Shown here piece after piece: positions 38,240-62,756 of a stretch of 64,000 nucleotides of DNA. The notes beneath the pieces are model-generated. The model had not been told where the DNA came from. It ran no database searches and saw only the letters and a list, made by a program, of their open reading frames with translations. Positions within the stretch are counted from its first letter, which is position 1; each line of letters starts with the position of its first letter. Source of the stretch: Thermophilibacter immobilis (GTDB lineage Bacteria > Actinomycetota > Coriobacteriia > Coriobacteriales > Atopobiaceae); NCBI RefSeq assembly GCF_015277515.1, contig NZ_CP063767.1, forward strand, positions 1-64,000, read 5' to 3'. The translations under genes were made by a program, and so were the position numbers.

Positions 38240-38320
38240 CGGGCGCGCTTCTCGCCCGAGCTTGCGCGCGGCAGGCGTAGGATACAAAAACAACGCATGT
38301 ATGCAAGCGGAGGTGGTCAC

Positions 38321-41026
38321 ATGGTCCTGACGCCACGGCAAGCAAGATCGGAGACTCCTGCGACCGGTCCGGGGCACCCCGCGATTCAGCGTGCGGCCAG
38401 TGCGTCTCCCCAGGAGGTGCTCCGTCAGTGCTCCTCGCAGAAGGGCGGCCTCGCCGCCCAGGAGGCGGCCGCGCGTCTGCAGAAGAGCGGACCCAACGTG
38501 CTGCCTTCTCGCCGCGTTACCTGGCCGGTGGTGCTGTGGCGGCAGGTCAAGAACCCCCTGCTGATCCTTCTGGTCGCGGCGGCGGTGCTCTCGCTCGTGA
38601 CGGGAGACCAGGCCAACGCATCTATCATCCTCGTCATCCTCCTGGCCAGCGTGGGCCTTGGCTTTGGCAACGAGTGGCGCGCCGAGTGTCAGGCCAGCGC
38701 GCTACACGATCGGGTCTCGCACACGGTCGTGGTCCTGCGCGGCGGCGCTCCGGTCGAGGTGAGCGTTGCCGACCTGGTGGTCGGCGACGTCGTGCGTGTG
38801 GGCCTAGGCGTCGTGGTCCCGGCGGACCTGCGCCTTCTGTCTTCCGTCGATCTGAGCTGCGACGAGTCGGTCATCACCGGCGAGTCAGACGCTCGCGAGA
38901 AGTCCGTGGATCCGGTGAGCGCCGGCACCGCCCTGGAAGAGCTCTCCTGCGCCCTCATGATGGGTACCGTCGTGCACTCCGGCTCCGGTGAGGCGGTGGT
39001 GGTCGCGACGGGCTCGGACTGCGTGTTCGGACACATCGCGGCCTCGCTGGCGACCGAGCTTCCCCAGACCGGCTTCCAGAAGGGCCTGTCCAAGTTCTCG
39101 ATGTTTCTGCTCTACGTGGCCCTTGCGCTCACGGCGGCCATCTTCGTGGGCAACGCGATCTTGCAGCGTCCGCTTCTCGATGCGCTACTCTACGCCCTGG
39201 CCATAGCGGTTGGCATCACGCCGCAGCTCTTGCCCGCCGTGGTCAACACGTCCCAGGCGGCAGGCGCCGCGCAGCTGGCCAAGAAGGACGTGCTGGTCAA
39301 GCGCCTGGCGTGCGTCGAGGACCTGGGCAACGTCGACATCCTGGTCACGGACAAGACGGGCACCCTCACGCAGGGACACATCGACTACTGCCGGTCTGCC
39401 CCCGCGCGCGGACACGACCAAGAGAGCTTGGAGCTCCTGGGACTCTTGTGCTGCGAGACGGACTTCACACAGCCCGGGGCCACACCCGTCGGGCAAAACG
39501 AGATAGACCGCGCGCTCAGCGAGCACGTGGCACCTAGCGTTGACCTGGGCGGATGGCGGCGGCTGGACCTGCGCCCCTTCGACCACGTCTCGCGGACCAG
39601 CGCGGTCCTGAACGCGGACGGTGACGGCAGGCGCGTGCAGGTTATGAAGGGCGCCCCCGAGTCGGTCATCTCGCACTGCAAAGAGGTCGCCCAGGAGGAC
39701 CGTGACCAGTGCCACGCCCTGTTCGCCGAGGGCCTGCGTACCATCGCCGTGGCTGTGCGCGACGCGGGCAACGCAGACGAGCTGCCCGACTCCCCTCCGA
39801 GCGACTTTACCCTGGTGGGCTACCTCTCCTTCCTCGATCAGCCCAAGCCCGACGTCGAGGCGTCCCTGAGGCGCCTCGCGGAGCTCGGGGTCGCCGTGAA
39901 GGTCGCGACGGGGGATAGCCTCGTGGTCGCCCAGAAGGTCTGTCACGACCTTGGCCTGGAGGTTGGCACCCCCTTGACCGGCGAGGACATCGACGCGCTA
40001 AGCGACGACGAGCTCTATGACGCCGTGCACCATACGGCCCTTCTGGCGCGCGTCTCTCCCGAGCACAAGGCGCGGATCGTCCAGACGCTGCGCCGTCACC
40101 ACAACGTGGCGTTTCTCGGCGATGGCGTCAACGACGCTCCCGCCCTGCACCAGGCAGACGTGGGCATCTCGGTGGATACCGCCACGGACGTGGCCAAGGA
40201 CGCGGCCGACGTCGTCTTGCTGAAGAAGGATCTGAGCGTCATCGTGGACGGCATCACAGGAGGTCGCCGGACCTTTGCGAACACCATCAAGTACGTGATG
40301 ATGAGCACCTCCTCCAACTTTGGCAACATGTTCTCGGCGGCCATCGCCTCGGTGGTGCTGCCGTTTCTGCCGATGCTCTCCGGACAGCTGCTTCTGAACA
40401 ACCTGCTGTACGATATCTCGCAGCTCGCTATCCCCACTGACCGGGTGGACGAGGAGAGCCTGCGCAAGCCGGCGCACTGGGACCTGAAGGGGATTCGCAG
40501 GTTCATGATCATGTTCGGACCGGTCTCCTCGATCTTTGACTTTCTCACGTTTGCCCTCATGTTGTTTGTCTTCCATGCGGGAACGACCGAGTTTCGTGCG
40601 GGTTGGTTCGTGGAGTCCCTGGCCACCCAGACCCTGATCGTGCTGGCCATTCGCACGCGATGCATTCCCTTCTGGCGCAGCCGCCCCTCGCGTACGATGG
40701 TCGTCTCCGTCTCCTGCGTGGTCTGCGTGGGAGCTCTTATCCCGTACCTGCCCTTTGCCGCCGAGCTCGGCTTTGCCCCGTTGCCGCTGCCGTTCTTTGC
40801 CGCTCTGGTGGGCATCGTCGGTGTCTACCTGGTGCTGATTGAGATCGTAAAGTGGTTCTACTACCGGAATGCCGATCAGGCGGAAGGGCCCGTCGAGCAT
40901 CATGACACCAGCGCGCTGCCGCATTCCCGGGTGCCGAGCGACGTGCGCCATCAGAGGATCGTCGCGGGCACGGCCGTCCGGTTTTGGCCCAAGTCCCAGA
41001 AGGGACGTGGGGTGCGCTCCCGCTGA
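38321..41026 (+). CDS. mgtA: MgtA-type P-type magnesium ATPase
   Basis: Imports Mg ions using ATP (P3B ATPase). About 901 aa. All catalytic motifs are present: TGES near residue 187, the phosphorylated DKTGTLT near 348, MKGAPE in the nucleotide domain and GDGVNDAPAL near 605. The NLLYDISQLAIPTD segment matches the MgtA/MgtB membrane signature. ATG 38321 is chosen because GGAGGTGG lies just before it; another ATG eight codons upstream lacks one. Ends with a hydrophilic C-terminal extension of about 60 residues. No Mg riboswitch is visible in the 80-bp upstream gap. Confidence 0.88.
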   Translation: MVLTPRQARSETPATGPGHPAIQRAASASPQEVLRQCSSQKGGLAAQEAAARLQKSGPNVLPSRRVTWPVVLWRQVKNPLLILLVAAAVLSLVTGDQANASIILVILLASVGLGFGNEWRAECQASALHDRVSHTVVVLRGGAPVEVSVADLVVGDVVRVGLGVVVPADLRLLSSVDLSCDESVITGESDAREKSVDPVSAGTALEELSCALMMGTVVHSGSGEAVVVATGSDCVFGHIAASLATELPQTGFQKGLSKFSMFLLYVALALTAAIFVGNAILQRPLLDALLYALAIAVGITPQLLPAVVNTSQAAGAAQLAKKDVLVKRLACVEDLGNVDILVTDKTGTLTQGHIDYCRSAPARGHDQESLELLGLLCCETDFTQPGATPVGQNEIDRALSEHVAPSVDLGGWRRLDLRPFDHVSRTSAVLNADGDGRRVQVMKGAPESVISHCKEVAQEDRDQCHALFAEGLRTIAVAVRDAGNADELPDSPPSDFTLVGYLSFLDQPKPDVEASLRRLAELGVAVKVATGDSLVVAQKVCHDLGLEVGTPLTGEDIDALSDDELYDAVHHTALLARVSPEHKARIVQTLRRHHNVAFLGDGVNDAPALHQADVGISVDTATDVAKDAADVVLLKKDLSVIVDGITGGRRTFANTIKYVMMSTSSNFGNMFSAAIASVVLPFLPMLSGQLLLNNLLYDISQLAIPTDRVDEESLRKPAHWDLKGIRRFMIMFGPVSSIFDFLTFALMLFVFHAGTTEFRAGWFVESLATQTLIVLAIRTRCIPFWRSRPSRTMVVSVSCVVCVGALIPYLPFAAELGFAPLPLPFFAALVGIVGVYLVLIEIVKWFYYRNADQAEGPVEHHDTSALPHSRVPSDVRHQRIVAGTAVRFWPKSQKGRGVRSR

Positions 41027-42152: not shown

Positions 42153-44306
42153 ATGGGGCTCACGAGCGCATCAACAGGAGCACAGGTCCTCCACCCCTCT
42201 GGCCTGCATATCGAGAAAGAAACCGAGAAAGACCGCGTCATCGCCCTTGCCGGCAACCCCAACGTGGGAAAGAGCACGGTCTTCAACGCCTTGACCGGCA
42301 TGAACCAGCACACGGGCAACTGGCCGGGCAAGACCGTCGTCAACGCGCAGGGGCGGTGCCGCCACAAGGACACCAACTTCATCCTCGTGGACATCCCGGG
42401 CACCTACTCGCTCATGGCGAACTCGGAGGAGGAAGAGGTCGCGCGCGACTTCATCTGCTTCGGCGGGGCCGACGCCGTGGTGGTCGTGGCCGATGCCACC
42501 TGCCTGGAGAGAAACCTCAACCTCGTCCTGCAGACCATGGAGATCACCGACCGCGTGGCGCTCTGCGTCAACCTGATGGACGAGGCTGCCAAGAAGGACA
42601 TCCTCATCAACCTCGACCTGCTCTCTTCTCGGCTGGGAATTCCGGTCGTGGGGACCGCCGCCCGCTCCGGCGAGGGACTGGACGCCGTGATGGACGCGGT
42701 CAAGGGGCTCGCGGACAAGACGGGGCCCGCCCATTCCCTTGTTATAGCGTACGGCGACCAGATTGAGGATGCCATTCACCAGGTGGAGCCCGCGGTGGTA
42801 GCCGCTCTGCCCGCAGGTGCCAACACCCGTTGGATCGCCCTCAAGCTGATCGACGGTGACAAGAGCCTCATGGACTCCCTCGATGCCTACTTCGGCTTTG
42901 ACCTTATGCAGAACGAGGGCGTTTCTCGTGCTGTTAAAGAGGCAAGGCGGACACTGGGGGAGTCCGGCATAGCCGAGGATCAGCTCAGAAGCAAAATAGT
43001 GACGAAGATCGTCAACACCGGTGAGGGAATCTGTAAGGGTGCAGTCATATTCAAGACCAAGGAGTATGCCGAGCGCGACCGCAAGATCGACAAGATCCTG
43101 ACCTCAAAGGCCACGGGCATCCCGATCATGATCTTGCTGCTGTTCGGAATCTTCTGGTTCACCATCACGGGGGCCAACGTTCCGTCAGATCTTCTCGCTG
43201 ACTCTCTGTTCTCCCTGGAAGCGCCCCTCTCGCAGCTCTTCGTAAACATCGGAGCACCGGAATGGCTGCGTGGCATGCTTGTTGACGGCCTCTACAAGAC
43301 GGCCGCATGGGTCATCTCCGTCATGCTGCCGCCCATGGCGATCTTCTTCCCGCTCTTCACGCTGATGGAGGACCTGGGCTACCTGCCGCGTGTCGCGTTC
43401 AACCTGGACAACTTCTTCCGTAAGGCCCAGGCGCATGGGAAGCAGGCCCTCACCATGTGCATGGGGTTTGGATGCAACGCCTGCGGCGTAATCGGCTGCC
43501 GCATCATCGACTCGCCGCGCGAGCGCCTGATCGCGATTCTCACCAACAACTTCGTTCCCTGCAACGGGCGCTTCCCCACGCTGATAGCCATCATCACGAT
43601 GTTCTTTGCCGGGGCCGTGGGCGGGGCGTTTCAGTCGGTCGTCTCCACGCTCATGCTCACCGGGACGATCGTCCTGGGTGTGTTCATGACGCTCATGGTC
43701 TCCAAGCTGCTCTCCAAGACGATTCTGAAGGGGATGCCCTCCTCGTTTCAGCTGGAGCTCCCGCCCTACCGACGCCCCCAGATTGGCAAAGTCATCGTAC
43801 GCTCCATCTTTGACCGCACCCTCTTCGTGCTGGGGAGGGCCGTATCCGTGGCCGCGCCGGCGGGCATCGTCATCTGGCTTCTGGCCAACATCCACGTGGG
43901 GAGCCTAAGCCTTCTGGCCTACTGTGCGGGGTTCCTGGATCCCTTCGGGCGCTTCATCGGCATGGACGGCTACATCCTTATGGCGTTCATCCTGGGCTTT
44001 CCCGCCAACGAGATCGTGGTCCCCATCCTCATCATGAGCTACATGGCGGCGGGCACCCTCGTTGACTTTGATAGCTTCGCCCAGCTGCACACCCTTCTGG
44101 TGGCCAACGGCTGGACATGGCTGACGGCCGTGTGCACCATGCTGTTCTGCCTGCTGCACTGGCCCTGCGGCACGACGGTCCTTACGGTTAAGAAGGAGAC
44201 GCAGAGCGTCAAGTGGGCGGCAATCTCGTTTGCCCTGCCCACGCTGACGGGCATTGTCATCTGCGCAATCGTGGCGAACGGCGTACGGTTTTTGGGACTG
44301 GCATAG
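42153..44306 (+). CDS. feoB: ferrous iron transporter FeoB
   Basis: GTP-dependent Fe(II) transporter. The 717 aa protein has a cytosolic G domain with G1 GNPNVGKST, G3 DIPGTYSL and G4 NLMD, then a GDI region and about ten membrane helices. The gate-type motifs GFGCNACG and VPCNGRFP carry the conserved Cys residues. AGGAGG precedes the ATG. It lies 44 bp after the broken feoA. Catalytic motifs look intact. Confidence 0.94.
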   Translation: MGLTSASTGAQVLHPSGLHIEKETEKDRVIALAGNPNVGKSTVFNALTGMNQHTGNWPGKTVVNAQGRCRHKDTNFILVDIPGTYSLMANSEEEEVARDFICFGGADAVVVVADATCLERNLNLVLQTMEITDRVALCVNLMDEAAKKDILINLDLLSSRLGIPVVGTAARSGEGLDAVMDAVKGLADKTGPAHSLVIAYGDQIEDAIHQVEPAVVAALPAGANTRWIALKLIDGDKSLMDSLDAYFGFDLMQNEGVSRAVKEARRTLGESGIAEDQLRSKIVTKIVNTGEGICKGAVIFKTKEYAERDRKIDKILTSKATGIPIMILLLFGIFWFTITGANVPSDLLADSLFSLEAPLSQLFVNIGAPEWLRGMLVDGLYKTAAWVISVMLPPMAIFFPLFTLMEDLGYLPRVAFNLDNFFRKAQAHGKQALTMCMGFGCNACGVIGCRIIDSPRERLIAILTNNFVPCNGRFPTLIAIITMFFAGAVGGAFQSVVSTLMLTGTIVLGVFMTLMVSKLLSKTILKGMPSSFQLELPPYRRPQIGKVIVRSIFDRTLFVLGRAVSVAAPAGIVIWLLANIHVGSLSLLAYCAGFLDPFGRFIGMDGYILMAFILGFPANEIVVPILIMSYMAAGTLVDFDSFAQLHTLLVANGWTWLTAVCTMLFCLLHWPCGTTVLTVKKETQSVKWAAISFALPTLTGIVICAIVANGVRFLGLA

Positions 44307-54072: not shown

Positions 54073-55419
54073 ATGGACGTAGCCATTAGTATTGTCGTCA
54101 CGTTTCTCCTCACGCTTGCCAATGGGTTCTTTTCCGCCTCCGAGCTGGCTGTCGTCTCCGCAAAGCGAGCTCTGCTCGAGCCTGATGCCGATAACGGTGA
54201 CGCAAAGGCCCAGGCTGCCCTCGACCTCTCTGCTGATTCTGGCCAGTTTCTGGCCACCATTCAGGTTGCCATCACACTTGTGGGATTTGCGTCGTCGGCC
54301 TTTGCCGCGACCAGCCTCTCCGGTCCTCTTGGCGGATGGTTCACCTCCCTCGGGATGCCGGAGGGCGTCGCTGCCGGACTGGCGCCCGTGCTCATTACCC
54401 TGCTCGTCTCTTACCTCTCCATCGTCGTGGGCGAGCTTGTTCCCAAGCGTATCGCCCTGTCCAACTCGGAGGGGGTGGCCAAGGCCGTGGCGGGGACGAT
54501 TCGCGGGTTCATGCACGTCGCTCGTCCCCTTGTCTGGGTTACCTCCCGCTCCGCCAATGGCATAGCCAAGTTCCTGGGAGTCAAGCCCGACGGCGACCGT
54601 GGGGTCGCCTCTGAAGAGGAAATTAAGTACTTGGTGACCGACGCCGCCGAGCTCTCCGACGAGGAGAAGTCCATGATTCACGAGGTCATCGACTTGGGGG
54701 ACACCATCGCCCGCGAGGTCATGGTCCCCCGCGTGGACATGACGGCCCTGGAGGACTCCTCCACCCTGTCCGAGGTCCTCGCCGTCATGCGCCGCACCGG
54801 TTACTCGCGCATCCCCATCTACCACGGCTCCGTTGACCGTGTCGTGGGCGTGGCGCACATCAAGGACATCGTCAGCCTCATTCTTGACGAGGACCGTTCG
54901 TCCGAGTCCGTGGCCGCCTACGTGCGCACCGCCGACTACGTGCCTGACACCAAGGACATCATCCCCCTGCTCTCCGAGATGCAGTCGAGCCACGACCAGA
55001 TGGTCATCGTGGTAGACGAGTACGGCGGCACGGCGGGCGTCATCACGATCGAGGACATCGTCGAGGAGATCGTGGGCGAGATCGAGGACGAGTTCGACCC
55101 TGACAACAAGTTTCTCACCAAGCTCTCCGACCGCGAATGGCTCGTGGACGGGCGCTTCTCGCTCGATGATGCTATCGACCTGGGTTGGCCTGTCGAGGAC
55201 AACGAGGAGTACGAGACCATCGCCGGCTTTGTGACCGACCTCGCCGACAAGCTCCCGCGCCCTGGGGACGTCATCGAGAAGGACGGCTACCAGTTTCTTG
55301 TGCAGTCCATGCGTGGTCGTCGCCTTGCGATGTTGCGCGTCACCGCGCCCGAGCCGATCGTTGAGGAGCCTTCTGCCGACGCTGACGGTGACGGGGACGG
55401 AGAGTCTGCGAAGGAGTAA
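54073..55419 (+). CDS. CNNM/CorC-HlyC family membrane protein with CBS domains
   Basis: About 448 aa. Residues 1-190 form a DUF21/CNNM membrane domain with four hydrophobic segments. A paired CBS domain follows (VPRVDMTALEDSSTLSEVL and VPDTKDIIPLL), with the VVDEYGGTAGVITIEDIVEEIVGEI signature, then a CorC/HlyC C-terminal domain and an acidic tail. Family members are linked to Mg or Co export. ATG 54073 is chosen; a GTG 18 codons earlier is in frame. Another Mg-linked gene in this window. Confidence 0.85.
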   Translation: MDVAISIVVTFLLTLANGFFSASELAVVSAKRALLEPDADNGDAKAQAALDLSADSGQFLATIQVAITLVGFASSAFAATSLSGPLGGWFTSLGMPEGVAAGLAPVLITLLVSYLSIVVGELVPKRIALSNSEGVAKAVAGTIRGFMHVARPLVWVTSRSANGIAKFLGVKPDGDRGVASEEEIKYLVTDAAELSDEEKSMIHEVIDLGDTIAREVMVPRVDMTALEDSSTLSEVLAVMRRTGYSRIPIYHGSVDRVVGVAHIKDIVSLILDEDRSSESVAAYVRTADYVPDTKDIIPLLSEMQSSHDQMVIVVDEYGGTAGVITIEDIVEEIVGEIEDEFDPDNKFLTKLSDREWLVDGRFSLDDAIDLGWPVEDNEEYETIAGFVTDLADKLPRPGDVIEKDGYQFLVQSMRGRRLAMLRVTAPEPIVEEPSADADGDGDGESAKE

Positions 55420-56257: not shown

Positions 56258-56707
56258 ATGAACAAGAAGACGGTCGGTTTTATTCTTGGAAGCATCTTTG
56301 GGGCCGCAACGGGCGTGGCCGCTGGCATGATGCTCGCCCCGCGCTCCGGCGCCGAGAGCCGCGCCATGGCCGCCGACGCCATGAACGATGCGTGGGACTC
56401 CGCAGTGGACACCTATGAGCGCGGGAGTGGCGTCGTCTCGGACAAGATCGACGACGTTCGTCCCACCGTTGACGCCAAGACCGACGAGCTGCGCGCCAAG
56501 GTGGACCTCGCTCGCGAGCGCATGGATCAGCTCCGCGACTCCCTCTCCGACGCCGTCTCGGACGCCTCCGAGCAGGTCCAGGACGCAGTGACCTCCGTGA
56601 CCGACAGGGTCGCGGCCATGACTGACGTTCCTGCAGAGAATGGTGCAAAGGCCGCCGAGGCCGTCCACGTCGAGGTCGTCGACGAGGACGATGCGTACGA
56701 GGCGTAG
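56258..56707 (+). CDS. YtxH-like membrane-anchored helical protein
   Basis: A 149 aa protein of the YtxH type: one N-terminal hydrophobic helix (residues 6-27, GFILGSIFGAATGVAAGMML), the family motif APRSG, then a long amphipathic helix with frequent Asp/Val/Ala. Family members are general-stress proteins of unclear function. AGGAGG precedes the ATG. Stop is 4 bp before the PRC-barrel gene. Confidence 0.75.
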   Translation: MNKKTVGFILGSIFGAATGVAAGMMLAPRSGAESRAMAADAMNDAWDSAVDTYERGSGVVSDKIDDVRPTVDAKTDELRAKVDLARERMDQLRDSLSDAVSDASEQVQDAVTSVTDRVAAMTDVPAENGAKAAEAVHVEVVDEDDAYEA

Positions 56708-56711
56708 GCCT

Positions 56712-57758
56712 ATGCTCAAGGTGAGTGATCTGGTGGGGCTTCGAGTCCGCGTTCCCAAGAAGCCCAAGAAGGCCAAGGACGGGACCACGACCGAGCGCAC
56801 CTCAAAGCTCGGCAAGATTCACATGGCCGTCTTCTCGCCGGACGGCGCGCAGGTCGTGGGGTTCATGGTGAGGCGTCCTGACGTGGTGGGCATGGTCAAG
56901 CGCGAGGACGCGTTTCTTGCGTGGGACGCCTTTGGGCCGTCTGACGGCAAGGTCGTTGTGGTGACTCGTCCCACTGACGGGCTCGACGCCGAGGCCAGAA
57001 AGCGTCTCCTGCTGGACTGGGACGCCTGTATCATGTGGGCGGGCATGGACGCCAAGACGGTCGAGGGCAAGCCTCTGGGCTACGTCTCGGATGCCGAGTT
57101 TGACGAGAGGACCGGGCGCGTGACGCGCTTCTTCACCACCGACGGTGGCGTTTCCCATGCGCTCGTGGGCTCGTTTCAGATCACGCCCGACATGGTACGC
57201 GGCTATGCGCACGGTCGCATGGTCGTGGACACGGGCGGTAAGGCCCTCGAGCCTGACGGGGGGCTGGCGGGCGCAGCCGGAGAGGGCTATGCGCGCGCCA
57301 AGGTCAAGGGTGCCGAGGTAGGCAAGAAGGCCGGTGCCGCCGCCGGCGAGGCTGTGGAGAAGGGCTCGTTTGCGCTCGGCAAGGTAATTGGCAAAGCTCA
57401 GAAGGCTATCTCCGAGGCCACGAAGGAGGAGCCTGAGCCCCAGCCTTCTCAGTCGGCCCCGCAGGCTCCCGCAATGGCGGCTGCGGATGTGCGCGTGGAG
57501 GAGCCGGTCGAGAAGCTCCCGGAGAGCGCGGCGCAGCGGGCCGAGCGGCCCGCGCCCAAGACCTACGCTCCGGCGTCGGAGGGGAAACCGGAGCGAAGGA
57601 AGACGGCTTCGGCAGAATCCAAGACGGCGCAGCCAAAGTCTAAACCTGAGCCCAAACCGGCTGCCGACAAGGCCGCGAAGGCCGTTGGCAAGCAGCTCGG
57701 AGCCATGGGCAAGATGTTCGGCTCCTTCAAGGACGAGTTCGACAAGGCGAATAAGTAG
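56712..57758 (+). CDS. PRC-barrel domain protein with charged tail
   Basis: A 348 aa protein. Two PRC-barrel-like repeats occupy residues 1-170 (MLKVSDLVGLRV and GKPLGYVSDAEFDERTG). Residues 195-240 form an Ala/Gly/Lys helix, then a Pro/Glu/Lys-rich tail ends with a short basic helix. Start ATG has a weak site, but translational coupling from ytxH (4 bp away) is likely. Function not known. Confidence 0.65.
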   Translation: MLKVSDLVGLRVRVPKKPKKAKDGTTTERTSKLGKIHMAVFSPDGAQVVGFMVRRPDVVGMVKREDAFLAWDAFGPSDGKVVVVTRPTDGLDAEARKRLLLDWDACIMWAGMDAKTVEGKPLGYVSDAEFDERTGRVTRFFTTDGGVSHALVGSFQITPDMVRGYAHGRMVVDTGGKALEPDGGLAGAAGEGYARAKVKGAEVGKKAGAAAGEAVEKGSFALGKVIGKAQKAISEATKEEPEPQPSQSAPQAPAMAAADVRVEEPVEKLPESAAQRAERPAPKTYAPASEGKPERRKTASAESKTAQPKSKPEPKPAADKAAKAVGKQLGAMGKMFGSFKDEFDKANK

Positions 57759-59272: not shown

Positions 59273-60538
59273 TTACGCTCCCGTGACCTGCATCACGAGC
59301 ATCACCACGGTCAGCACTACAACGGCGATGATGGTGAACCACGTGAGCACGTTCCATACGCGGCCGTTCGCGTGGTTGCCCATTACGTGTCGGTCGCTGG
59401 CAATGCGGACCATGAACACCAGAAGGACCGGCAGGAGCACGCCGTTTATGACCTGCGCGACCATCATGATGCCAAAGAGATTCACATTGGGGACAAGCAC
59501 CACGGTCGCCGAGATGACGATCACGGCAGTGATGACGCCGCGGTAGACGGGGGCCTCTGACCAGCCGTGATCAGCTCCGTGCTCCCAGCCAAAGGCCTCG
59601 CAGACGGCGCTCGAGGTGATGCCCGGCAAGACGCATGAGGCCAAGAAGGACGCGCCCACGAGTCCCGCGCCAAAAAGCACCTCCGCATAGTCGCCTACCA
59701 GGGGCGCTAGCGCGCTGGCGGCATCCTGGGCACCGTTGACGACCACGCCCGCCGGGTGCAGCACGGCGCCCGTGGTCAGGATGATGAACCAGGAGATCGC
59801 GCTCGCCACCACGGCACCCGTCACGGTGTCGATTCGCTGGTAGGGAAGACTCTGCGCCGTGGCGTTCTTCTCGACCACGTTGCTCTGGGCCAAAAAGACC
59901 ATCCACGGCGCAATGGTGGTGCCCACGTTGGCCACGAGCAGCGAGAAGTACTGCGGATTGCTGTCAAATTGCGGCACGAGGGTGGCAAAGAGCGCGTCTC
60001 CCCAGTTGGGCCCCACCATGATGCCAGCCACTACGTAGGTCACAAAGACGCAGCTTACGGCCAGGAGGACCTTCTCGATGCGTCGATACGAGCCGCTCAT
60101 GGTGAGCAGCCAGATTATCACGGCGGCAACGGGCACGGACACGTAGATGGGCACGTCGAACAGGGCCATGCCCGAGGCGATACCCGCGAACTCGGAGAGC
60201 GTGACCGTGGTGTTAGAGATCAGAAGAGCCAGCATAGCCAGGGCGCTCATGCGCACACCAAACTGCTCGCGGATAAGCGAGGCAAAGCCCTTGCCCGTGA
60301 CGCAGCCCATGCGCGCGGCCGTCTCCTGTGCCACGATGAGGAGAAAGCACATGACGGGGACGGTCCAGAGCTGGCCAAAGCCAAAGAGAGCGCCCGCGTT
60401 GGAGTAGGTGGCAACGCCGCCGGCATCCGCGCCGGCGAGGGCTGCGACCATGCCGGGCCCCATGGCGGCGAGGATGAGCCTTGGCTTCAGCCTTGTCCGC
60501 TGGTGCTGAGGTGGGTCCGTCTTACCGATACCTGACAT
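59273..60538 (-). CDS. Nramp-related magnesium-type transporter (NRMT-like)
   Basis: A 421 aa membrane protein with about 11 hydrophobic segments and the Nramp fold. The TM1 metal motif, DPGN in Nramp, is DAGG (residues 38-41). The TM6 motif, MPH in Nramp, is APW (210-212). The Asp is kept, the Asn is Gly and the Met is Ala, the pattern described for Nramp-related Mg transporters such as that of Eggerthella lenta. Its ATG shares the A of the preceding gene's TGA stop (60538). Mg/Mn transport is inferred. Confidence 0.8.
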   Translation of the reverse strand: MSGIGKTDPPQHQRTRLKPRLILAAMGPGMVAALAGADAGGVATYSNAGALFGFGQLWTVPVMCFLLIVAQETAARMGCVTGKGFASLIREQFGVRMSALAMLALLISNTTVTLSEFAGIASGMALFDVPIYVSVPVAAVIIWLLTMSGSYRRIEKVLLAVSCVFVTYVVAGIMVGPNWGDALFATLVPQFDSNPQYFSLLVANVGTTIAPWMVFLAQSNVVEKNATAQSLPYQRIDTVTGAVVASAISWFIILTTGAVLHPAGVVVNGAQDAASALAPLVGDYAEVLFGAGLVGASFLASCVLPGITSSAVCEAFGWEHGADHGWSEAPVYRGVITAVIVISATVVLVPNVNLFGIMMVAQVINGVLLPVLLVFMVRIASDRHVMGNHANGRVWNVLTWFTIIAVVVLTVVMLVMQVTGA

Positions 60539-62409
60539 CAGCTAGCCCACCACAGCCCGCAAGGTCCTGACAGGAGCGCCGAGGCGACGACGAAGGTCAC
60601 CACCGCGACGATCATGGCTAAGATGGAGAGCGCAAATCCCGAAGTCTCGCGGTTCTTGTCGTCACGATGGCGCAGCACGACGAGGTAGGTCGGCGCGAGC
60701 GCAAACGAGACAAAGGTCGAGACGGCGGCTCCGATTCCACCAGTGGTCAGCGCTGGCCCCAGAAGGCCGTCAAGGCCGTGCGCGGGCATCACGGGAGAGG
60801 CGAGCAGGTTCACCAGGGCCACCGAGATAAGCGCCACAAGCATGCCAGACGCAACCCCGACGCCCAGGCTCTTGAACGCAAAGCCCACCAGGGAGGGGGA
60901 GTCCTCGTCGTCAGGGTCATTTTCCAGGAAGAAGTTGGTCACATAGCTGATAGAGTCGCCGGCGAGCACGAGCGCTACGGCGAGGGGAAGGCAGCAGACA
61001 AGCGTCTCCTGCGGCCGGAGCCGCTCACCGGACACGAACGTGAGCGCAAGGATGCCGAGCGCCCACAAGAAGACCCACACGTTGCGACGAAGCAGCCACG
61101 CGAGGGCGCCCGCACGCTCGGAGCCCTCGCTGCCGTCGGAGCCCGCGCCGGCAATCTGCAGATCCTCCGCGTGCTCCTCTTCGAGGACGTCGAGAGCGTC
61201 GTCGACGGTGACGATGCCCAGAATGTGCCCATCGTCAGCCACGACGGGCATGGCCAGGAGGTTGTACTTGGCGATGCCCTCGGCCACGTCCTCCTGGTCG
61301 TCTTCGGGATTCGCGGTGACCAGCTCTTCGGTGCTTATCTCGATAAGGGGGTCGTCGGGGTTGGCAGTTATCAGGTGGTTAAGTGTCACCACGCCGCACA
61401 GTCGGCCGTCGTCATCCGTCAGATAGAGGTAGCGCACGGTCTCGAAGTCCTCGTCGAGTCCCTTAAGCAGCGCAATCGCGTCTGCGGCGGTGCCGTCGTG
61501 GGAGATGGCGGCAAACTCGGAGGTCATGATGCGGCCCGCCGTGTCCTCGCGGTAACCCAGCAGCTGACGTACGGCGTTCTGCTCCTTGACGCCCATGAGG
61601 CGCAGGAGCTTCTCGGCCTTGTCGTAGTCCAGCTCGCTGACGAGCTCGGCGGCGTCGTCGGGGTCCATCTCGGACAGCGTACGCGAGGCGTCCGACTCGT
61701 TCATGCCGCCCATGAGCTCGGCGGCCATGGCGTCGTCGTCGAACTCGGCGAGGGCACCGGCGCGCTGCTCGTCGTCGAGCTGAGCAAAGACTTGGCCGCG
61801 CAGGCGCGGATCGAGCCGCTCGATGATGTCGGCGATGTCGGCAGGGTGCAGCTCGTCGAGGGTTTTGTGCGAGACGGAGAGCTTGACGTTGGAAAGGTCG
61901 CGCTCCACGAGGTCCATGTAGCTCCACGCGATGATGCGCTCGGGCAGAGGGTGGCCAAAGGTGTGCGCGAGCTTCAGGGCCAGACGCTCCAGGGCGGGGT
62001 GCAGGGTGCGCAGAATGCCGCGCATGCCTACCTCCGCACCAAGCAGGCGCAGCTGGGTCGAGCTGGTGTCGGAGAGCTTGAGGTCGTTCACGCGCACGAC
62101 GCGCATGCCGTGGGTATCCACGATCTGCTTGTTCAAGATGTCGCGAGCGAGAAGAACCTCGTCAGGCTGCAGATAGGAGAAGCGCAGGTCGGTCGAAGTT
62201 GCCTTGAGGCGCACTTCCTTCTCGTCATAGGTGTTCACATACTTGCGCCAGCTGATCATGAGAGGCGTACGGCCGGTGCCCGTAAAGGCCAGACTCGTCA
62301 CACGGGGGAAGACCTCGCCGGTGGCGATTCCTAGGTCGGAAACGGTGCCAACCTTCTCACCATCGGAGTCAAGAACGGGATTTCCCAGAAGTTGGGAGAG
62401 ATAGATCAT
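60538..62409 (-). CDS. MgtE-like sensor with PRC, CBS and degenerate pore domains
   Basis: A 623 aa protein. Two PRC-barrel-like segments (1-70 and 85-165) precede an MgtE N-domain (180-290, with ELHPADIADIIERL), two CBS domains (292-352 and 355-412) and five membrane helices (443-612). The membrane part aligns in layout with MgtE but lacks its GGNxGTQ signature after TM2, and the conserved TM5 pore Asp region is FALSILAMI. It probably senses Mg rather than conducting it. ATG 62409 follows AAGGAG; a TTG one codon upstream is possible. Confidence 0.75.
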   Translation of the reverse strand: MIYLSQLLGNPVLDSDGEKVGTVSDLGIATGEVFPRVTSLAFTGTGRTPLMISWRKYVNTYDEKEVRLKATSTDLRFSYLQPDEVLLARDILNKQIVDTHGMRVVRVNDLKLSDTSSTQLRLLGAEVGMRGILRTLHPALERLALKLAHTFGHPLPERIIAWSYMDLVERDLSNVKLSVSHKTLDELHPADIADIIERLDPRLRGQVFAQLDDEQRAGALAEFDDDAMAAELMGGMNESDASRTLSEMDPDDAAELVSELDYDKAEKLLRLMGVKEQNAVRQLLGYREDTAGRIMTSEFAAISHDGTAADAIALLKGLDEDFETVRYLYLTDDDGRLCGVVTLNHLITANPDDPLIEISTEELVTANPEDDQEDVAEGIAKYNLLAMPVVADDGHILGIVTVDDALDVLEEEHAEDLQIAGAGSDGSEGSERAGALAWLLRRNVWVFLWALGILALTFVSGERLRPQETLVCCLPLAVALVLAGDSISYVTNFFLENDPDDEDSPSLVGFAFKSLGVGVASGMLVALISVALVNLLASPVMPAHGLDGLLGPALTTGGIGAAVSTFVSFALAPTYLVVLRHRDDKNRETSGFALSILAMIVAVVTFVVASALLSGPCGLWWAS

Positions 62410-62756
62410 CAATGCTCCTTACGTTTGCGCTGCTCGCCTGCAAAGGCGGACGGCTGTCACACCCCGTGCGGCGTGGCCAGGTGGGAGCACACCGTTGGGG
62501 CTATCGACTGTGAGGTCGAGGTTTCATACGGGCCCTTCTCTTCGGCGAATAGGCGGCCACACGCACGTGCTTGCGCAGCGCAACCGCATGTTATTGTACA
62601 CGACGCTTACGGCTACCGGACGGCGCATACAGCTTCCCATACCTTGCCTATGCTGGCTCTTATTGCCCAGGAGGGACGATCTGACCCCTGGCGAACAGAT
62701 ATCTGACGCGTTTGGCCGCTATCATGTAAGCGTTCGCAACGGGACCGGAGGAAGGC
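62410..62756. promoter_or_regulatory. divergent promoter region of the Mg pair and GH3 gene
   Basis: No gene is seen. A minus-strand -10-like TACAAT at 62598-62593 would give the MgtE-like gene a leader of about 175 nt, long enough for an RNA switch. I looked for the M-box and yybP-ykoY conserved cores and could not match them. On the + strand, GGAGGAAGG (62748-62755) is the ribosome site of the GH3 gene. Confidence 0.45.

Follow-up and report, generated by a model that had tools for sequence, protein, structure and literature searches.

Introduction

The closest described relative of the operon treated here is the NrmT unit of Shin et al. (2014, PLoS Genet, PMC4072509), in which NrmT genes lie beside a gene for a homolog of the cytoplasmic domain of the Mg2+ channel MgtE and for which feedback gating was proposed; both the pairing of the two genes and the gating idea were thus already published in 2014. 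The reference for the transporter itself is EleNRMT of Eggerthella lenta (7QIA, PMC8806188), a Nramp-related Mg2+ transporter (NRMT); the published signature of this group is DxxG in transmembrane helix 1 (TM1) and TxxA in TM6, and the Asp, Glu and Gln positions of the EleNRMT metal site matter. For MgtE, the functions of the sensor, plug-helix and ATP sites were taken from PMC5882242 and PMC5529423. In Salmonella, the leader open reading frame (ORF) mgtQ governs exposure of the ribosome-binding site of a Mg2+ transporter gene, for which its Asp2 and Glu5 are required (PMC8092293). We here describe an operon on the minus strand of a 64,000-nt stretch of Thermophilibacter immobilis (NZ_CP063767.1, positions 1 to 64,000; referred to as the window), in which an NRMT gene is preceded by a gene for an MgtE-derived protein, the companion, and by a very short leader ORF. 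Olsenella-related gut and oral bacteria keep a predicted Mg2+ importer in one operon with a pore-less, sensor-keeping channel relative, and the tiny leader gene probably controls the amount of importer made.

A conserved two-gene unit

The companion gene (60538..62409, minus strand) was read from the ATG at 62409, with a TTG one codon earlier, and encodes 623 residues from this ATG. The NRMT gene (59273..60538, minus strand) follows immediately, the stop of the former and the start of the latter overlapping in the sequence TGATG (60536..60540, minus strand) and sharing base 60538. The survey of related loci covered the Actinomycetota, and the scan of genome contigs the Coriobacteriia. A companion gene was found directly upstream of NRMT and on the same strand in 159 of 174 NRMT loci examined, with a median gap of 27 nt, which goes beyond chance adjacency. 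NRMT-like matches, a few of them weak and MntH-like, were obtained in 325 of 398 Coriobacteriia genomes; the companion TM domain was found in 168, of which 166 also have an NRMT match, and those TM-domain matches that were listed adjoin NRMT. The 14 genomes of the family of T. immobilis that have no NRMT also have no companion TM domain. The pair is adjacent across about 20 family-level groups of Coriobacteriia and in further actinobacterial families, with companions outside the Coriobacteriia being five-TM, soluble or PRC-only proteins.

In a tree of the N and CBS domains, all companions form one clade apart from canonical MgtE (99%), within which the five-TM companions group together (88%), with the one-TM forms nested among these five-TM ones. 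A single C-terminal TM anchor replaces the five-TM domain in Eggerthellaceae and one other family (loci L054, L056, L057, L060, L062-L065, L069 and L199), with two or more such reductions indicated by the tree. Among the Eggerthellaceae loci inspected (Eggerthella sinensis included, E. lenta not singled out), it is this one-TM form that lies upstream of NRMT.

Most NRMT neighbours share a PRC region bearing the RDxLNKQxVD..G motif, and this region is also among the most conserved parts of the companion. PRC-only proteins of about 200 residues adjoin NRMT in other Actinomycetota, sometimes alongside a five-TM companion, and carry the RDxLNKQxVD motif that is also present in the second PRC domain of the companion (L223 3254-3904, L227 5223-5828, L228 5283-5861, L232 5265-5855, L234 5262-5837 and L235 886-1470). 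One orphan five-TM companion without NRMT was observed (G171, L085 1697-3538, followed by prmC), the first PRC domain of which has decayed, with its conserved residues lost. Open frames of about 1044 residues suggested a natural fusion of companion and NRMT; this was rejected, as a stop codon or a frame shift always separates the two genes. Five TM helices would place the C-terminus of the companion outside, and NRMT would start inside, so that a fusion would be hindered.

The transporter

The NRMT protein matches the Pfam Nramp family and carries the motifs DAGG in TM1 (residues 38-41; 60416..60427, minus strand) and TTIA in TM6 (residues 207-210; 59909..59920, minus strand), the latter continuing into PW to give TTIA-PW at 207-212. 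DAGG and TTIA are kept in nearly all of 23 aligned homologs, in which D38 and the equivalents of Glu116 and Gln362 are conserved as well. The protein therewith has DxxG and TxxA/T in place of DxxN and A/CxxM. It aligns to EleNRMT (7QIA) with an E-value of 1.8e-148, and the model of a homolog superimposes on 7QIA with a TM-score of 0.93. As an ortholog of EleNRMT with the published site and its Asp, Glu and Gln positions, it is predicted to move Mg2+. A second, distant Nramp homolog is encoded in the same genome (G000 C1:188161-189351, L257) and is a candidate Mn2+ transporter.

The companion

Pfam assigns to the companion a PRC domain (residues 1-67), MgtE_N (187-289) and two CBS domains. The second PRC domain is without a Pfam call and was deduced from the PRC-only relatives with the same motif, which gives the order PRC-PRC (about 1-166), MgtE_N (187-289), CBS-CBS (to about 417) and a five-TM MgtE fold (about 432-619) with the pore residues gone. 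The Pfam profile for the MgtE membrane domain (PF01769) finds no match in the window companion, and the protein scores below the NCBIfam cut-off for MgtE (194 vs 233 bits). A profile of 23 companions nevertheless aligns with TtMgtE including the TM domain (182-603 to 47-469, E-value 1.8e-69), PF01769 scores above cut-off in deeper homologs from other families, and a model of the homolog L045 matches the MgtE structures 2YVX, 2ZY9 and 5X9H in Foldseek with TM-scores of 0.71-0.75; the membrane domain is therefore MgtE-derived.

The GGNTGNQ positions of TtMgtE read AGDSISY in the window companion, and the position of Asp432 is Met, within FALSILAM. Of 56 five-TM companions, none retains the pore Asp432 (lost in 56/56), the GGN loop is gone from every member displayed, and the ATP-stacking Phe227 is replaced by Leu in 56/56. 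The sensor residues D91 and D247 (site Mg4) and E258 and D259 (Mg2, Mg3) are kept in 56/56, and the D250 position is D or E. Short companions mostly lose E258/D259 and retain D91/D247. The five-TM domain itself has almost no conserved residue, being fast-evolving and without conserved polar pore residues.

The sequence-only reading of this stretch had described the TGATG overlap of two minus-strand genes at 60540-60536, a PRC-PRC-MgtE_N-CBS-CBS protein with five TM helices lacking the MgtE pore signature, and an Nramp fold with DAGG in TM1, APW in TM6 and the Asn- and Met-less metal site typical of NRMT. The overlap was confirmed from ORFs and sequence, the altered GGN loop and the Met at Asp432 agree with the lost pore signature, and the transporter matches the published DxxG/TxxA exactly. 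The check that it had proposed, conservation of the neighbourhood across Coriobacteriia, came out in favour, as the pair stands side by side in about 20 family-level groups of the class. The leader ORF and the RNA element upstream were not part of that reading.

Predicted interface

For structure prediction with AlphaFold2, the two proteins were modelled in one chain, using relatives with both genes in the same frame except for a stop codon, which was read through, and paired alignment rows. A pair from Eggerthellaceae (913 residues, single chain) gave a predicted TM-score (pTM) of 0.69, compared to about 0.49 estimated for independent placement of the halves, given that NRMT makes up 44% of the chain. 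The five-TM pair L045 (model 1) gave a pTM of 0.66 with a flawed alignment, where TM domains from unpaired companions had been wrongly aligned to NRMT columns; the interface was therefore judged from the Eggerthellaceae model only, and the halves of model 1 were used for the fold search. The model suggests an interface between companion and NRMT. As the PRC region is common to most NRMT neighbours, it would be the likeliest docking part.

A leader ORF in place of a riboswitch

Upstream of the companion, 91 nt before its start, lies the leader ORF MKPRPHSR* (62501..62527, minus strand; ATG AAA CCT CGA CCT CAC AGT CGA TAG), preceded by a Shine-Dalgarno-like stretch, GAAGAGAAGGGCCCGT (62528..62543, minus strand), of which relatives conserve GAGAAGGGTC; translation of the ORF is predicted. 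Of 24 genomes sampled from the family, 22 contain a single ORF of the MKPRPHSR type; 125 other genomes contain none, and a reversed-pattern control gave 0 matches. The deviations from the pattern affect the third base of a codon or the stop codon. Synonymous variation is seen among 54 distinct Atopobiaceae leaders; the pattern behind this codon table had codons 1-5 fixed beforehand up to synonyms, and the genome pattern search is the unbiased test. Throughout Coriobacteriales the leader has the form P-H-S-x-stop, with MKSKPRPHSR* from a GTG start in Collinsella and MKVRKSKPHSK* from a TTG start in Eggerthellaceae. It is present in 101 of 105 distinct leaders of this order (82 with exact P-H-S, 19 near variants), and the frame is kept across three families through ATG, GTG and TTG starts, an in-frame two-codon insertion (MKSKPRP) and TGA, TAG and TAA stops. 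No such ORF was found in 363 kb of control sequence, in 17 loci of sister-order families, in 22 loci outside the class or before the other Mg2+ genes of the genome, in which the only exact copy is that of this operon.

The RNA segment following the leader (62461..62500, minus strand) comprises a local hairpin from the leader stop and GTGCTCC (62490-62484), which can base-pair with GGAGCAT (62418-62412) at the ribosome-binding site of the companion, AAGGAGCAT (62412..62420, minus strand), the partner in the pairing test. Across relatives the segment and this site co-vary. Matched duplexes of this segment with the ribosome-binding site were stronger than permuted ones (z of -6.4 in Atopobiaceae and -4.5 in Eggerthellaceae, with related sequences thinned, although shared ancestry may still inflate z), and also stronger than those with shuffled or upstream segments. 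In the window, the hairpin starting at the leader stop is the best fold and competes with this pairing, so that either direction of control, masking or unmasking, would be possible.

Ten loci from sister orders were checked, and there the companion is preceded, at a distance of 160-330 nt, by an M-box riboswitch, with which an over-extended first start codon overlaps in one locus. No M-box (RF00380) was found in the window or its genome and no other Rfam element in the window leader; scans for sigma-70 promoters and intrinsic terminators found nothing. As far as can be read from these sequences, in Coriobacteriales the leader ORF replaces the M-box that this operon has in other orders of Coriobacteriia.

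Other Mg2+ genes in the neighbourhood

The genome has no canonical MgtE; it has CorA, MgtA and CNNM. A Mg-type P-ATPase is encoded at 38297-41026 (plus strand; TIGR01524, 745 bits vs a cut-off of 611), adjoining FeoB (42153-44306), and no copy of the leader ORF precedes it. The only CNNM-family gene of the genome (54019-55419, plus strand; PF01595 at 54097-54651) is about 4 kb from the operon, and 14 of 56 named Coriobacteriia loci have a homolog no more than 5 kb from their operon. Also near the operon, a 372-residue protein (56640-57758, plus strand) has a borderline PRC match, at 21.1 bits for a cut-off of 21.2, together with a long tail rich in Ala, Pro and Lys. A connection between the P-type ATPase and this operon was considered and rejected, there being no support beyond its presence 18 kb away.

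Interpretation and alternatives

We interpret the locus as an operon for Mg2+ import that is controlled at two levels, with the companion most likely acting as a regulatory subunit that senses Mg2+ and the leader as an attenuator of expression, and assign this a probability of about 0.5. The companion would be a former MgtE channel turned regulatory subunit, which has lost the ion pathway and retains, besides the N/CBS sensor, those Mg2+ residues of the plug helix through which MgtE is closed at high cytosolic Mg2+. It would dock on NRMT, probably via the strongly conserved PRC region, and slow or close the transporter when its sensor is Mg2+-bound, while the leader ORF and the following RNA, able to mask the companion ribosome-binding site, would set the level of both proteins. 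A more specific version is put forward as less likely than not: the MgtE pseudo-channel would bind NRMT in the membrane as a Mg2+ gate and close it at high cytosolic Mg2+, and in Coriobacteriales a leader peptide would have taken the place of the riboswitch, with ribosomes on it signalling low Mg2+ in a manner unlike that of mgtL/mgtQ. The sequence-only reading had likewise proposed a two-protein unit, in which a pore-dead MgtE relative gates or stabilises NRMT; the conserved pair stands, with gating or stabilisation as a proposed role. The placement of the two proteins as a complex, which it had suggested to predict, came out more confident than independent placement, in a single-chain model. 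The MgtA- and CNNM-type genes with which it had supported a Mg2+ theme are both present, 4-20 kb off and on the other strand.

Several observations weigh against our interpretation. The NrmTs of C. acetobutylicum gave full Mg2+ rescue without a companion and the companion of A. capsulatum did not improve rescue (both PMC4072509), and EleNRMT was solved and transports without one (PMC8806188). The window companion lacks two sensor acids (Gly at the E59 position, Asn at the D226 position), and the predicted pair was joined in one chain, the alignment of the first model being flawed. On the RNA side, the leader peptide is basic and lacks those acidic and Pro features on which mgtQ/mgtL rely, the pairing in Coriobacteriaceae is suggestive only (p 0.06), and the window leader folds no better than shuffles (z -0.38), its best fold leaving the ribosome-binding site largely free.

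The companion could instead be a structural or assembly subunit, which would use its PRC region and its membrane domain to hold NRMT stable or in position, with Mg2+ sensing being secondary. The conservation of the PRC region as common denominator of NRMT neighbours, PRC-only proteins included, a five-TM domain almost without conserved residues, as a scaffold might be, and the 82 NRMT homologs that were tried to find one well-behaved alone (PMC8806188) are in keeping with such a part, but all 56 five-TM companions keep the sensor's Mg2+-site residues unchanged and the C. acetobutylicum NrmTs rescued growth unaided (PMC4072509); we regard this explanation as rather unlikely. That the five-TM companion still moves an ion, with altered selectivity or as an efflux protein, and that the genes are merely co-regulated, is highly improbable: the whole MgtE fold is kept, along with the plug-helix acids E258/D259 touching the membrane domain, yet the pore Asp is gone throughout and the GGN loop wherever displayed, the TM domain changes rapidly and has no polar pore residue in common, and in sister lineages it shrinks to one helix or none while NRMT stays. 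Equally improbable is an operon for manganese, with NRMT carrying mainly Mn2+. The NrmT of A. capsulatum, with its adjacent MgtE-like gene, rescued Mn2+ uptake (PMC4072509); against this stand the closeness of the window protein to EleNRMT with all metal-site residues present, the M-box before the operon in sister orders, and the Nramp at 188161-189351 as the better Mn2+ candidate.

For the leader, the competing reading is an RNA element, the letters of which matter as RNA, or a peptide sensing another signal, such as aminoacyl-tRNA, a polyamine or an antibiotic. The codons AAA (Lys2), CGA (Arg4) and AGT (Ser7) are invariant in most leaders, beyond coding need, the ORF itself contains a small CGAC/GUCG hairpin, and the connection to Mg2+ is one of position. 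Set against this, the unbiased search places the changes at the third base of codons or in the stop, the frame survives varied starts and stops and an insertion across three families, and the ORF occupies the place of the Mg2+ riboswitch of sister orders; we regard this alternative as less likely than not. Within our preferred reading of a Mg2+-import operon, Mg2+ would be the signal to which the leader responds.

Comparison with known systems

The window operon agrees with the unit of Shin et al. (PMC4072509) in its two genes and their order, the MgtE-like gene lying immediately upstream on the same strand, and in the M-box found in some members. It differs in that the companions reported there are homologs of the cytoplasmic domain only, whereas the window companion combines PRC-PRC-N-CBS with a complete, pore-dead five-TM domain, and in that a leader ORF replaces the M-box. 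The membrane-embedded pore-dead form, the reduction series and the split between sensor and pore residues are new relative to the 2014 report, not having been found in the literature searched (subscription papers were beyond reach). Compared to the MgtE channel (TtMgtE, 2YVX/2ZY9), the companion has the N and CBS domains, the plug-helix sensor residues and the five-TM fold; it lacks the GGN loop, Asp432 and the ATP-site Phe227, adds two N-terminal PRC domains and almost always stands beside NRMT. If it is indeed a pore-dead channel serving as membrane subunit of a transporter of another fold, such recruitment of a subunit would have few parallels.

The transporter resembles EleNRMT (7QIA, PMC8806188) as its ortholog, with the DxxG/TxxA site, the conserved Asp, Glu and Gln and a homolog model at a TM-score of 0.93, the difference being that EleNRMT was studied alone. 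EleNRMT is the structural model for Mg2+ transport in the Nramp family, and the conserved, sensor-like partner of its close relatives has been absent from the experiments. The leader was likewise not found in the literature searched and is to that extent previously undescribed. It shares with mgtQ and mgtL of Salmonella (PMC8092293, PMC6460261) a short ORF before a Mg2+ transporter gene and, with mgtQ, alternative RNA structures over the ribosome-binding site. Its peptide is unrelated, basic and ends in P-H-S-x, comes from another phylum, and has single prolines only and no acidic destabilising residues. The nearest precedent is mgtQ. The leader would add a second case, this one from beyond the enterobacteria, in which translation of a leader seems to govern a Mg2+ importer, here in lineages without the riboswitch.

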